A stretch of 64,000 nucleotides of DNA, from the NCBI GenBank assembly GCA_947631905.1, contig CANRND010000001.1, forward strand, positions 62,001 to 126,000, written 5' to 3'. This DNA is from an uncultured Clostridia bacterium (GTDB lineage: Bacteria; Bacillota; Clostridia; Christensenellales; Borkfalkiaceae). How positions within the stretch are numbered: position 1 is the first letter of the stretch; every line of letters begins with the position of its first letter. The notes beneath the pieces were generated by a model that made no database searches, was not told where the DNA came from, and worked only from the letters and a program-made list of their open reading frames with translations. Below, piece by piece: positions 25,036 to 57,965 of the stretch. The position numbers and the translations under genes were made by a program.

Positions 25036-25224
25036 GTCATGTCGAGCGTAGTCGAGACATCTCCACCGCTCGTCGCCGCACGCACGCTTTTCACACTTTT
25101 CTTTACGAAAAGCTCCTTTTGCGTGCGGTGGCTCCTCTTCCCGAAAAATCTTGCTTTGCAATCTTTTTCGGGAGTCCTATTAAGATGAGATTTCTCGACT
25201 TCACTTCGTTCCGCTCGAAATGAC
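25036..25224. repeat. Long composite repeat, copy 1 (189 bp)
   Basis: Bounded by GTCATGTCGAGCGTAGTCGA... and ...GTTCCGCTCGAAATGAC, the inverted ends of the main repeat family. The core is AGCTCCTTTTGCGTGCGGTG-type sequence plus the hairpin at 25140-25172. Nearly identical to 27439-27625. No open reading frame of note. Confidence 0.85.
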
Positions 25225-25258
25225 ATAAACGACGGCTTGAAGTTGCCCTACCGTTTTC

Positions 25259-25302
25259 CGCCCGCCGCGGTTTTAATAAAACCGCGGCGGGCGTTCTTTT
25301 TG
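25259..25302 (+). terminator. Terminator after the FNT gene
   Basis: CGCCCGCCGCGGTTTT-AAT-AAAACCGCGGCGGGCG (25259-25293) then TTCTTTTTGC. The same stem recurs at 27720-27754 after the BspA-like gene. Confidence 0.9.
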
Positions 25303-25322
25303 CAAAAAATTTTTCCAAATGC

Positions 25323-25351
25323 TTGTAAAAACGTTTCGGTTATGCTATACT
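25323..25351 (+). promoter_or_regulatory. Promoter of the structured leader / BspA-like gene
   Basis: -35 TTGTAA (25323-25328), 17-bp spacer, -10 TATACT (25346-25351). The expected start (~25358) coincides with the first base of the 12-bp closing stem of the leader RNA. Confidence 0.7.
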
Positions 25352-25357
25352 GAAATC

Positions 25358-25521
25358 ACCACACACAAACACATAAACTTTGTTGAGTAGCGCAATTTAG
25401 GCATTGCGTATCTCTTTGCATGTCGCAACTTAACAGAGCTTATGCAATATACGATTTGTGTGTGGTAACCTGATCGGAGATACCAACGCAGTGTGTTTCC
25501 TTTCGGGAACACACTTTTTTT
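25358..25521 (+). ncRNA. Structured ~165-nt RNA with its own terminator: attenuator-type leader or small RNA, family not recognised
   Basis: A perfect 12-bp closing stem (ACCACACACAAA 25358-25369 / TTTGTGTGTGGT 25455-25466) encloses a rod. Inner helices are CATAA/TTATG and GTTGAGTAGCG/CGCAACTTAAC, topped by CGCAAT-TTAGGC-ATTGCG. A small hairpin (CTGATC..GG-AGATA-CC..CAG) follows, then a rho-independent terminator at 25490-25521. The downstream start codon is only 31 nt beyond the T-run and no second promoter fits in between, so the BspA-like gene is probably read through from here. CA- and GT-rich segments of the closing stem are complementary to the terminator arms, allowing alternative folds. 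It matches no riboswitch consensus I know. Confidence 0.6.
25490..25521 (+). terminator. Terminator ending the structured leader
   Basis: AGTGTGTTTCC-TTTC-GGGAACACACT with one G-U pair, then a T-run. It lies upstream of the BspA-like coding region, as in transcription attenuators. Confidence 0.88.
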
Positions 25522-25552
25522 ATGCAGAAAATAAAAAAGGAGATAGAAACTT

Positions 25553-27376
25553 ATGAAACACAAATTTTTGGCGGTCCTCTTGGCGGTTGTAGCCGCCCTC
25601 TGCATGGCGTTCGGCTCTGTTGGGTGCGGGGAAAAGAACCCCGATGAAACGGGCAACAACCCGCCCGTCACCGACCCGAGCGGCAATCAAGGCGGCACGC
25701 AAAAACCCGATGAGGGCGAACAAGGGACGCCAACTCCCCATGTGCATTCTTACGGCGAATGGGAAGTGACGAAAGAGGCGACCTGCAAAGAGGAAGGCAC
25801 AAAGGAGCGTTCCTGCTCCTGCGGAGAGAAAGAGACGGAAACGCTTCCGCTCGTGGGGCATGATTTTGAGGATATGTCTTGCAGATGGTGCGGACTCAAA
25901 GCAAGCCTCGGACTCGTATATGTTCTTTTCAATGGAAATAAGGAATATGCGGTCTCTGATATTGGTGAATGCACGGATACCGACCTCATCATCACAAACA
26001 ACTATCACGGCAAACCCGTGACTTCGATCGGAGTGGAGGCGTTCTATGGTTGTAGCGGGTTGATTTCGGTCACCATTCCCGAAAGCGTGACCTCGATCGG
26101 AAATTCGGCGTTCTCGGGTTGTAGCGGGTTGACTTCGGTTACCATTCCCGACAGTGTGACCTCGATCGGAGTGGAGGCGTTCTATGGGTGTAGCGGGTTG
26201 ACTTCGATTACCATTCCCGACAACGTGACTTTGATCGGATATGGGGCGTTCGCGGATACCGCTTATTATAATAACGATAGCAACTGGACGGGCGATGTCC
26301 TATACATCGGCAATTATTTGATCGAAGCAAAAGATACGATTTCGGGAAGTTATTCCATTCGCGGCGGCACAAAAACGATAGCGTATGATGCGTTCTGGGG
26401 TTGTAGTGGGTTGACTTCGATCGAAATTCCCGACAGCGTGACCTCGATCGGAGCGGAGGCGTTTGAAGGCACTGCTTACTATAATGATGATAACAATTGG
26501 ACGGATGATGTGCTTTACATTGGCAATCATTTAATTGAAGCAAAATATACGTCGGAAAGTTATTCCATTCGCGGTGGCACAAAAACAATAGCGGATGAGG
26601 CGTTCCAGGGTTGTTGGGATTTGATTTCGGTTACCATTCCGAACAGCGTGACCTCGATTGGAAGAATTGCGTTCTATGAGTGTATATATTTGACTTCGGT
26701 CACGATCGGAAGCGGTGTGACTTGGATTGGAGATGTGGCGTTTGTAGCTTGTAACGAGCTGGCAGAAATAAACGTGGACGAAAACAATCAAACCTATCAT
26801 GCGCAAGGGAATTGTTTGATTGAAACAAAGAGCAAAACTTTAATTGTCGGTTGCAAAACGAGCAAAATCCCCGATGACGGAAGCGTGACCTCCATCGGAT
26901 ATGGGGCGTTCTCGTGTCACAGCGTGACTTCGATTACCATTCCCGACAGCGTGACCGAAATCGGAGATCGTGCATTCGAGTGTTGCGACGAGTTGACTTC
27001 GGTCACGATTGGAAACGGTGTGACTTCGATTGGCGCGAGTGCGTTCGATCAATGTTACGATTTAACTTCGGTCACCATTCCCGATAGCGTGACCTCGATC
27101 GGATTTAAGGCGTTCTGTTCTTGTTGGGGGTTGACTTCGATTACCATTCCTGACAGCGTGACCTCGATCGGAGCGGAGGCGTTTGAATATTGTGACAATT
27201 TGGAAGAAGTGCATTTTGAAAACCCGAACGGGTGGAAAATGTCATGGCGTGAAGAATTGTCATGGCTTGAAGATATGTCGGGCGCGGAAGCAGTTTTGGG
27301 GCTGGAAGACCCCGCAACAGCCGCAAAGTATTTGACAAGTACTTACGCCAGTTTTAATTGGAAACGCGAGGGGTGA
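25553..27376 (+). CDS. BspA-like leucine-rich-repeat surface lipoprotein (607 aa)
   Basis: Lipoprotein signal with lipobox GSVGC, then a Pro/Gly-rich linker and a Cys/His-rich segment (HSYGEWEVTKEATCKEEG, CSCGEKETETLPLVGHDF, C..C) common in gut Bacillota surface proteins. From ~150 to ~580 run more than ten 23-residue LRR_5 units of the form 'GC.gLtSvtIPdSVTsIG..AF', interrupted by two longer inserts (AYYNNDSNWTGDVLYIGNYL and a near copy). BspA-like repeats of this type occur in adhesins of Treponema, Bacteroides and Trichomonas. The DNA of the repeats is close to identical, so slippage or recombination is likely. RBS AAGGAG 10 nt before the ATG. Expression probably depends on read-through of the terminator at 25490-25521. 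Confidence 0.9.
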   Translation: MKHKFLAVLLAVVAALCMAFGSVGCGEKNPDETGNNPPVTDPSGNQGGTQKPDEGEQGTPTPHVHSYGEWEVTKEATCKEEGTKERSCSCGEKETETLPLVGHDFEDMSCRWCGLKASLGLVYVLFNGNKEYAVSDIGECTDTDLIITNNYHGKPVTSIGVEAFYGCSGLISVTIPESVTSIGNSAFSGCSGLTSVTIPDSVTSIGVEAFYGCSGLTSITIPDNVTLIGYGAFADTAYYNNDSNWTGDVLYIGNYLIEAKDTISGSYSIRGGTKTIAYDAFWGCSGLTSIEIPDSVTSIGAEAFEGTAYYNDDNNWTDDVLYIGNHLIEAKYTSESYSIRGGTKTIADEAFQGCWDLISVTIPNSVTSIGRIAFYECIYLTSVTIGSGVTWIGDVAFVACNELAEINVDENNQTYHAQGNCLIETKSKTLIVGCKTSKIPDDGSVTSIGYGAFSCHSVTSITIPDSVTEIGDRAFECCDELTSVTIGNGVTSIGASAFDQCYDLTSVTIPDSVTSIGFKAFCSCWGLTSITIPDSVTSIGAEAFEYCDNLEEVHFENPNGWKMSWREELSWLEDMSGAEAVLGLEDPATAAKYLTSTYASFNWKREG

Positions 27377-27438: not shown

Positions 27439-27625
27439 GTCATGTCGAGCGTAGTCGAGACATCTCTACCTTGTTGCCGCACGCACGCTTTTCACACTTT
27501 TCTTTACGAAAAGCTCCTTTTGCGTGCGGTGGCTCCTCTTCCCGAAAAATCTTGCTGTGCAATCTTTTTCGGGAACCCTAATAAAGTGAGATTTCTCGAC
27601 TTCACTTCGTTCCGCTCGAAATGAC
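27439..27625. repeat. Long composite repeat, copy 2 (187 bp)
   Basis: Differs from 25036-25224 at only a handful of positions and two short indels. Same inverted ends and the same hairpin (27541-27573). The following 27626-27719 is a short palindromic spacer (CCCCCTCCTGTGGAGGGGG), also present at 24990-25010, so the two regions share a whole layout. Confidence 0.85.
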
Positions 27626-27719
27626 AAGGGGAAAGTGCGCGAAGCAATAGAACCCCCTCCTGTGGAGGGGGAATGAGGGGGTGGGCAACATTCCCAAATT
27701 ATCATGCCTCCTCCCCCAC

Positions 27720-27762
27720 CGCCCGCCGCGGTTTTGCAAAAACCGCGGCGGGCGTTCTTTTT
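27720..27762 (+). terminator. Terminator upstream of pgi
   Basis: CGCCCGCCGCGGTTTT-GCA-AAAACCGCGGCGGGCG-type stem with TTCTTTTT; closes the BspA-like transcription unit. Confidence 0.88.
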
Positions 27763-27783
27763 GCAAAAAATAGTCCTATCCCC

Positions 27784-57845: not shown

Positions 57846-57957
57846 GAGAGCGGACGCGCCGCGGCACCGCAGGACGCAGGGAGAAAAATTTCCCCCGCCC
57901 TTTCGTTTGCGAACAACGTCCCGTTTCGCAACACTTAACGCGCCTTGGCTACTCTTC
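57846..57957 (-). promoter_or_regulatory. Tetrahydrofolate (THF) riboswitch upstream of the ECF S component
   Basis: The minus strand carries the conserved blocks of the THF riboswitch in order: AGAGTAG, GCGCGTTAAGTGT, GCGAA..GGGA.GTTGTTCGC..AACGAA, then a variable stem (GGGGGAAATTTTTCTCCC) and GCGGTGCC...GCGTCCGCTCTC closing P1. Downstream sequences include long-range complements (TCGTCGGC/GCCGACGA) and a T-rich hairpin, plausible parts of an expression platform. Named from known members such as that of Eubacterium siraeum. Confidence 0.88.
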
Positions 57958-57965
57958 TTGTGTTC

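Follow-up and report, generated by a model that had tools for sequence, protein, structure and literature searches.

Transcription-terminating riboswitches with a pseudoknotted aptamer include, for example, the preQ1, SAM-II and cyclic di-GMP-II (c-di-GMP-II) riboswitches, and c-di-GMP riboswitches stand ahead of clostridial adhesin genes. BglG/LicT systems rely on a ribonucleic-antiterminator RNA element, and the T-box has an Rfam model of its own. Here we compare with these systems a leader at 25358–25521 of a 64,000-nucleotide (nt) stretch of DNA from an uncultured Clostridia bacterium (contig CANRND010000001.1, positions 62,001 to 126,000; the whole stretch is called the window below), where it precedes a gene for a BspA-type leucine-rich-repeat protein. 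We regard the leader as a probable (about 0.83) cis-acting transcription attenuator, a promoter-plus-leader cassette in which one strand would switch between a pseudoknot and an antiterminator, and sequence comparison indicates that it belongs to an RNA family, spread through the class Clostridia, with no entry in Rfam.

Like the pseudoknotted riboswitches, the leader appears to use a pseudoknot strand in the expression platform as well, to choose between a terminator and an antiterminator, and to have a ribosome site just downstream; unlike preQ1, SAM-II and c-di-GMP-II riboswitches, it has no Rfam match, its ligand is only hypothetical, and surface and accessory genes, not those of a metabolic pathway, lie behind it. 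By this comparison, it would work like a terminator/antiterminator riboswitch with a pseudoknotted aptamer while belonging to no family tested. The preliminary description had stated that it fits no known class, and comparison with Rfam 15 agreed: at the gathering score, no family matched the leader in the window or in 20 + 20 related loci (three matches among the latter were tRNAs elsewhere in locus L230), and a permissive search returned 11 matches near the leader in the window, all far below the cut-offs; in 16 related loci it returned 4, none of them on a leader. The T-box was thus rejected, with no Rfam match in the window or the 40 related loci. Resemblance to c-di-GMP riboswitches lies in the leader being an attenuator before surface-protein genes in Clostridia. 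This class was also rejected for lack of an Rfam match, and c-di-GMP is an improbable signal, since GGDEF, the c-di-GMP synthase domain, occurs in only 5/12 leader-bearing genomes and was not found in the window's own genome (about 95% complete). In BglG/LicT systems, as here, the antiterminator overlaps the terminator 5' arm, whereas the present RNA is longer and pseudoknotted; the CAT_RBD domain (PF03123) was found in 0/12 leader-bearing genomes, with 4/14 control genomes positive.

Term searches of main-text passages of PMC8040213, PMC11109978, PMC8632094, PMC6429828 and PMC2864571 revealed no such leader; as the supplementary lists of such surveys (e.g., PMC8040213) lay outside the search, it may be an unnamed entry there. 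No literature on riboswitches in Christensenellales, on noncoding RNA in Borkfalkiaceae, or on BspA together with riboswitches or transcription attenuation was found in a search that excluded preprints and most subscription papers, and among the broader papers listed, the titles and opening lines of abstracts mentioned nothing on this motif.

Leader architecture and the two predicted pairings of strand J

Across the family, the leader consists, in order, of a closing stem P1 (at least 12 bp), an ATA junction, the 5' strand of P2, the hairpin P3, a bulge directly 3' of P3, the 3' strands of P2 and P1, a strand J and the terminator. In the window, on the forward strand, P1 is a perfect 12-bp stem between ACCACACACAAA (25358–25369) and TTTGTGTGTGGT (25455–25466), supported by the fold and by covariation, and it begins at the expected transcript start, the seventh base after the -10 box, as the preliminary description had it. 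The P2 strands, the first with one bulge, occupy 25372–25388 and, in the predicted fold, 25428–25444, and P3 (CGCAAT/ATTGCG, 25391–25408), identified from comparison, carries GGC on the 3' side of its loop. J is the 24-nt strand 25467–25490, where a separate small hairpin had been described; no such hairpin was found, and the strand is instead the putative switch. The terminator (25490–25521) comprises an 11-bp stem (25490–25500/25505–25515), a 4-nt loop and a T run to 25521. The gene start, ATG 25553, follows 31 nt later with AAGGAG upstream, as had also been reported. Folding of 25358–25530 gave -56.9 kcal/mol against -36.4 (standard deviation, sd, 3.6) for shuffled sequences (z -5.7; 0/200 as good).

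J can pair in two directions. Backward, its segment GGAGATAC (25476–25483) would form a pseudoknot with GTATCTCT (25408–25415, the first G in common with P3), the partner across the family being the bulge and the P3 loop. Forward, J would form an antiterminator with the terminator 5' arm and loop (25491–25504), as judged from duplex scoring and the minimum-energy fold, and the pseudoknot 3' strand doubles as part of the antiterminator 5' strand. Duplex energies with own and with swapped partners were compared for 102 members from the window's order, 66 from other orders, and 60 (of the 168) thinned for similarity. For the pseudoknot, own partners averaged -16.0 against -12.9 kcal/mol for swapped ones (sd 0.26), -16.3 against -13.1 (sd 0.34) and -16.2 against -11.8 (sd 0.34) in the three sets, respectively; for the antiterminator, the values were -13.9 against -9.2 (sd 0.29), -14.7 against -10.9 (sd 0.39) and -13.9 against -8.8 (sd 0.33), and 0/60 swaps were as low in the thinned set for either pairing. 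The own J outperformed a shuffled J in 164/168 members for the pseudoknot and 166/168 for the antiterminator, and shuffling of J reduced the antiterminator to -6.6 kcal/mol in the 102 members. Both pairings use common J bases in every member (102/102 and 66/66), and are thus mutually exclusive, at least in part. In addition, pseudoknots with changed letters were read by eye, including GTATCTC/GAGATAC, GTACCTC/GAGGTAC, GCGTCTC/GAGACGC, GTGTTTC/GAAACAC, CTTCTC/GAGAAG and TAGTAC/GTACTG.

The stems and the promoter are conserved as well. In 23 genus-level sequences, P1, P3, the pseudoknot and the terminator together had 96.4% of cells paired, with 16/35 pairs changed on both sides (0/500 shuffles reached either value; slid versions of the structure paired at most 56.5%), and P3 had 90.6% of cells paired with 3/6 pairs changed on both sides, counts that lean toward the structure, since a script had fitted the alignment to P1, P3 and the terminator. 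P2, whose sequence is variable, was recovered with at least six pairs around the pseudoknot strand in 94/102 order-level members. Direct MAFFT alignment misplaced P2, which was therefore cut or padded with N before realignment; the parse behind the 94/102 rows sometimes took the other half of the pseudoknot, and was used only for P2, its failures and the helix letters of L113. The sigma-70-type promoter (TTGTAA-17 nt-TATACT with an extended TG, 25323–25351), also noted earlier, is a match no better than chance when the window is taken by itself (1 found, 1.2 expected). The family bears it out: a -10 box stands 3–13 nt ahead of the aligned leader in 101/102 order-level and 66/66 class-level members (random positions, 20%), exactly 5 nt ahead in 84 and 56 of them, with the extended TG in 89 and 60.

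How the two pairings compete was explored by folding. In the minimum-energy fold of the window, J pairs with the terminator 5' arm and loop and with the start of the 3' arm, forming the antiterminator; in the centroid fold, it is the terminator that forms, and a mixture of the two is therefore predicted for the free RNA. Blocking both pseudoknot strands in the prediction yields the terminator. Among the 102 members, the antiterminator averaged -13.4 and the terminator -14.6 kcal/mol, and the two lay within 3 kcal/mol in 57/102.

Comparative sequence data support the two pairings and the overlap between them, as well as the promoter position and the coupling to the downstream gene; which fold is ON, and that a signal exists, we infer. 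We propose that P1, P2 and P3 fold as a rod when the polymerase leaves the promoter. In the OFF state, J would pair back with the bulge and the loop beside P3, leaving the terminator 5' arm free so that transcription ends; in the ON state, the pseudoknot would fail and J would pair with the terminator 5' arm and loop, allowing read-through into the gene. Default termination is the most economical reading, as pseudoknot formation need not wait for the terminator arm to be made, and anything weakening the pseudoknot would favour the antiterminator. A signal would thus shift the balance by stabilizing or weakening the pseudoknot; a ligand that stabilized it would be a repressor signal and one that destabilized it an inducer, and the comparative data fit either.

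Several observations weigh against this scheme, in addition to the lean of the fitted alignment. Changes in the pseudoknot inside the genus set are one-sided, the two-sided ones being those read by eye between subfamilies, and one of five measures in that set, further pair types, was reached by 21/500 shuffles. The pseudoknot duplex is weak in L110 (-3.8 kcal/mol; its bounds are probably wrong) and L072 (-9.0), and 8/102 members did not pass a stricter parse (four without a contiguous pseudoknot helix, four without a clear P2). The swap and shuffle statistics ignore the tree, the 60-member set thinning near relatives only. The pseudoknot requires the rod to bend back, and P3 is missing from the minimum-energy fold of the window. 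When the terminator 3' arm is held unpaired, the antiterminator of the window reaches -10.7 kcal/mol, short of the -13.8 of the terminator; among the 102 members, the antiterminator is the more stable of the two in 38. Few conserved letters are left outside pairings for a metabolite pocket, no open reading frame (ORF) was recognized behind 8/111 order-level and 9/66 class-level leaders, and the downstream genes point to no pathway.

Distribution of the family and the genes behind it

A BLAST search of 61 genomes returned close copies of the leader and several weaker paralogues. Two covariance models were built: R1 from 23 leaders, that of the window included, without pseudoknot or antiterminator pairs, and R2 from 102 members with P1 and terminator pairs only. 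The covariance search for homologues recovered a family, with covariation present. R1 (E <= 0.01) found members in 64/396 genomes sampled from the order (26/142 genera), and R2 (E <= 1e-4) in 76/391 genomes sampled from the class (47/222 genera), 69 of the 76 lying outside the window's order. Up to eight leaders were found per genome where at most eight candidates were scored, so copy numbers are floors. A sample of the phylum contained the leader in 1/398 genomes, the window's own, and doubles as a check on false positives; of its leader-free genomes, 20 are listed and 377 are not, and 14 of the 20 are class members that were also empty in the class search. Close copies occur in uncultured Clostridia, Firmicutes and Eubacteriales bacteria and in Candidatus Coproplasma (Bacillota, Clostridia in the NCBI taxonomy). 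In five class-level loci (L278, L244, L257, L243 and L260), promoter-leader units stand in tandem, the second 48–66 nt behind the first and each with its own -10-like box; L101 and L137 carry two leader matches in series with wider spacing. No leader match was found in viral contigs with two exact patterns as queries, or in phages and plasmids with one class-level leader as the query; such narrow queries say little about diverged copies.

The models also matched, weakly, the opposite strand of some leaders (L104, L106, L093, L115, L107 and others), a sign that the rod may be close to a palindrome.

The leader of the window is followed by the gene for a 607-aa lipoprotein-like protein (25553–27376, forward strand) with BspA-type leucine-rich repeats (LRR_5, E 2e-89). 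By a rule requiring a Shine-Dalgarno-like motif, at least 35 codons and a start within 160 nt, an ORF follows 103/111 order-level and 57/66 class-level leaders; of the nine class-level members that lack one, four open a tandem and one lies at a contig end. The start codon stands a median of 25 nt (order) or 21 nt (class) behind the model end, which is tight for a separate promoter in most members, and the preliminary view that a second promoter hardly fits after the terminator therefore extends to the family. Together with the two conserved pairings, this coupling to a downstream ORF upholds the earlier assignment as an attenuator-type cis leader.

LRR_5 repeats were found in 40/97 order-level and 19/53 class-level downstream proteins scanned, the Zn_Ribbon_1 domain in 9/97 and 1/53, and the Listeria-Bacteroides repeat in 7/97; a crude lipoprotein pattern fitted 58/103, and some proteins are small, such as the 82-aa protein of L214, which has no Pfam match. 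This mixture indicates that the regulon is not one pathway. The window's genome has 16 LRR_5 loci (neighbouring matches grouped), four of them behind a leader (on contigs C1, C22, C3 and C15), and two further leaders (C2 and C14) precede genes outside the LRR_5 list; the C15 leader scored a weak 29.6 bits in the genome search; scored as a locus, it reached 52.7 bits. In two loci (L271:1792-2031 and L239:1841-2080), the leader precedes an 80-aa protein whose start resembles AbrB/MazE and whose end is rich in Cys, and these are taken to be the MazE_antitoxin matches seen in 2/53 class-level downstream proteins.

Three other features of the window were recorded. A repeat of ~190 nt, which looks like a miniature inverted-repeat transposable element (MITE)-type interspersed repeat, flanks the leader-BspA cassette on both sides (25036–25225 and 27439–27626; pieces 95% and 97% identical); at E <= 0.001, the genome contains 54 matches to it, and one copy (C22:29769-29962, 96%) lies ~300 nt behind another BspA gene with a leader. 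A strong GC-rich terminator-like palindrome is present in two copies 94% identical, one upstream of the leader promoter (25258–25310) and one behind the BspA gene (27719–27771). The sole Rfam match of the window at the gathering score is a THF riboswitch (RF01831, 60.2 bits) at 57847–57958 on the reverse strand.

Candidate signals and alternative explanations

Conserved letters that the pairings do not obviously explain cluster at one place. Among 156 members with a full P1, positions 5, 6 and 9 of this stem are nearly fixed (A in 148, C in 151 and A in 149), positions 7 and 8 are looser (A in 133; C in 114 with T in 40), and the outer pairs vary with compensation. An ATA near the P1/P2 junction (25373–25375 in the window, where it is predicted to be paired at the base of P2; unpaired in many members) is present in 138/156, against 26% expected from shuffled interiors, and J starts with AAC or AGC in 144/156. 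The P1 core, the junction ATA and the A(A/G)C after P1 are therefore a candidate recognition site.

As a first guess, which we put a little short of even odds, the signal would be a small molecule and the leader a riboswitch. This is favoured by the self-contained cassettes with their own promoter, the unrelated genes behind them, the tandem units with their own -10 boxes, and the clustering of conserved letters at the P1 core, ATA and A(A/G)C. Two marks of a riboswitch were found, a conserved RNA domain in a cis leader that precedes an ORF and, from comparative evidence, mutually exclusive folds of the domain and the terminator. More tentatively still, the family may be a new Clostridia riboswitch class, a promoter-aptamer-terminator cassette put to at least eight uses in some genomes and answering to one small molecule, which would set BspA-type adhesins and other surface and accessory proteins through the pseudoknot/antiterminator strand.

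The main rival, unlikely yet the one to be taken most seriously, is a protein-controlled attenuator, in which a regulator would bind P1 or the rod and fix one fold. The near-invariance of P1 positions 5, 6 and 9 as sequence is what a helix-binding protein could require, and the many unlinked targets would suit such a regulator; against it stands the absence of the BglG/LicT-type RNA-binding domain from the 12 leader-bearing genomes searched, a result that covers this one protein type, the only one searched for. A temperature or ion signal, or a bistability under no regulation, appears somewhat less likely again, and a trans-acting RNA as the signal would be a distinct surprise.

The switch envisaged in the preliminary description, in which the arms of P1 exchange partners with those of the terminator, is very improbable. 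Six-base complementarities of this kind do exist in the window (-8.3 and -8.5 kcal/mol), and the three closest relatives keep a CACACA-type six-base pairing (-8.3, -6.4 and -8.3) together with GTGTGT/ACACAC (-8.5 in all), whereas AAACACA/TGTGTTT itself occurs in none of the three. Own partners do exceed swapped ones steadily, by 2–5 sd (-5.5 against -5.0 and -5.4 against -4.9 kcal/mol, sd 0.12, in the 102 members; -6.9 against -6.4, sd 0.20, and -8.1 against -7.4, sd 0.17, in the 66; 0/60 swaps as low in the thinned set), and the P1 core is conserved as sequence. The excess is, however, about 0.5–0.8 kcal/mol, compared with 3–5 for the pseudoknot and the antiterminator, and each pairing is worth roughly half of the -18.1 kcal/mol of P1 in the window, which would need to be undone. 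Thus the idea of two exclusive folds survives, and the better-supported alternatives are the pseudoknot and the antiterminator sharing 25467–25490.

Attenuation by ribosomes translating a short upstream reading frame (uORF) is comparably improbable. A Shine-Dalgarno-like site with a start codon and at least five codons lies inside 61/168 leaders; in 32 of these the position is much alike, often GGAGATACCATGC within J, and some ATG frame of at least five codons is present in 136/168. The combination of site and start is absent from the other 107, so that the conserved translated uORF of a leader-peptide attenuator was not found; the frames listed differ widely in length, and the GGAG and ATGC at the uORF site take part in the pseudoknot and the antiterminator. 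Finally, an independent trans-acting small RNA, an option left open earlier, would account for the own promoter and terminator and for a P2 sequence that differs between copies, and it can nearly be set aside because a free small RNA would have no evident need of a conserved antiterminator, and because most leaders have an ORF, preceded by a ribosome-site-like motif, so close behind them.

A regulatory RNA family present in 47/222 sampled genera of one class yet without an Rfam entry is rare. The window's genus is known from metagenome-assembled genomes, and the proposed attenuator would offer a handle on which large surface proteins these bacteria choose to display. The pseudoknot/antiterminator scheme points to precise mutations, and a ligand, should one exist, could show what signal these bacteria watch.

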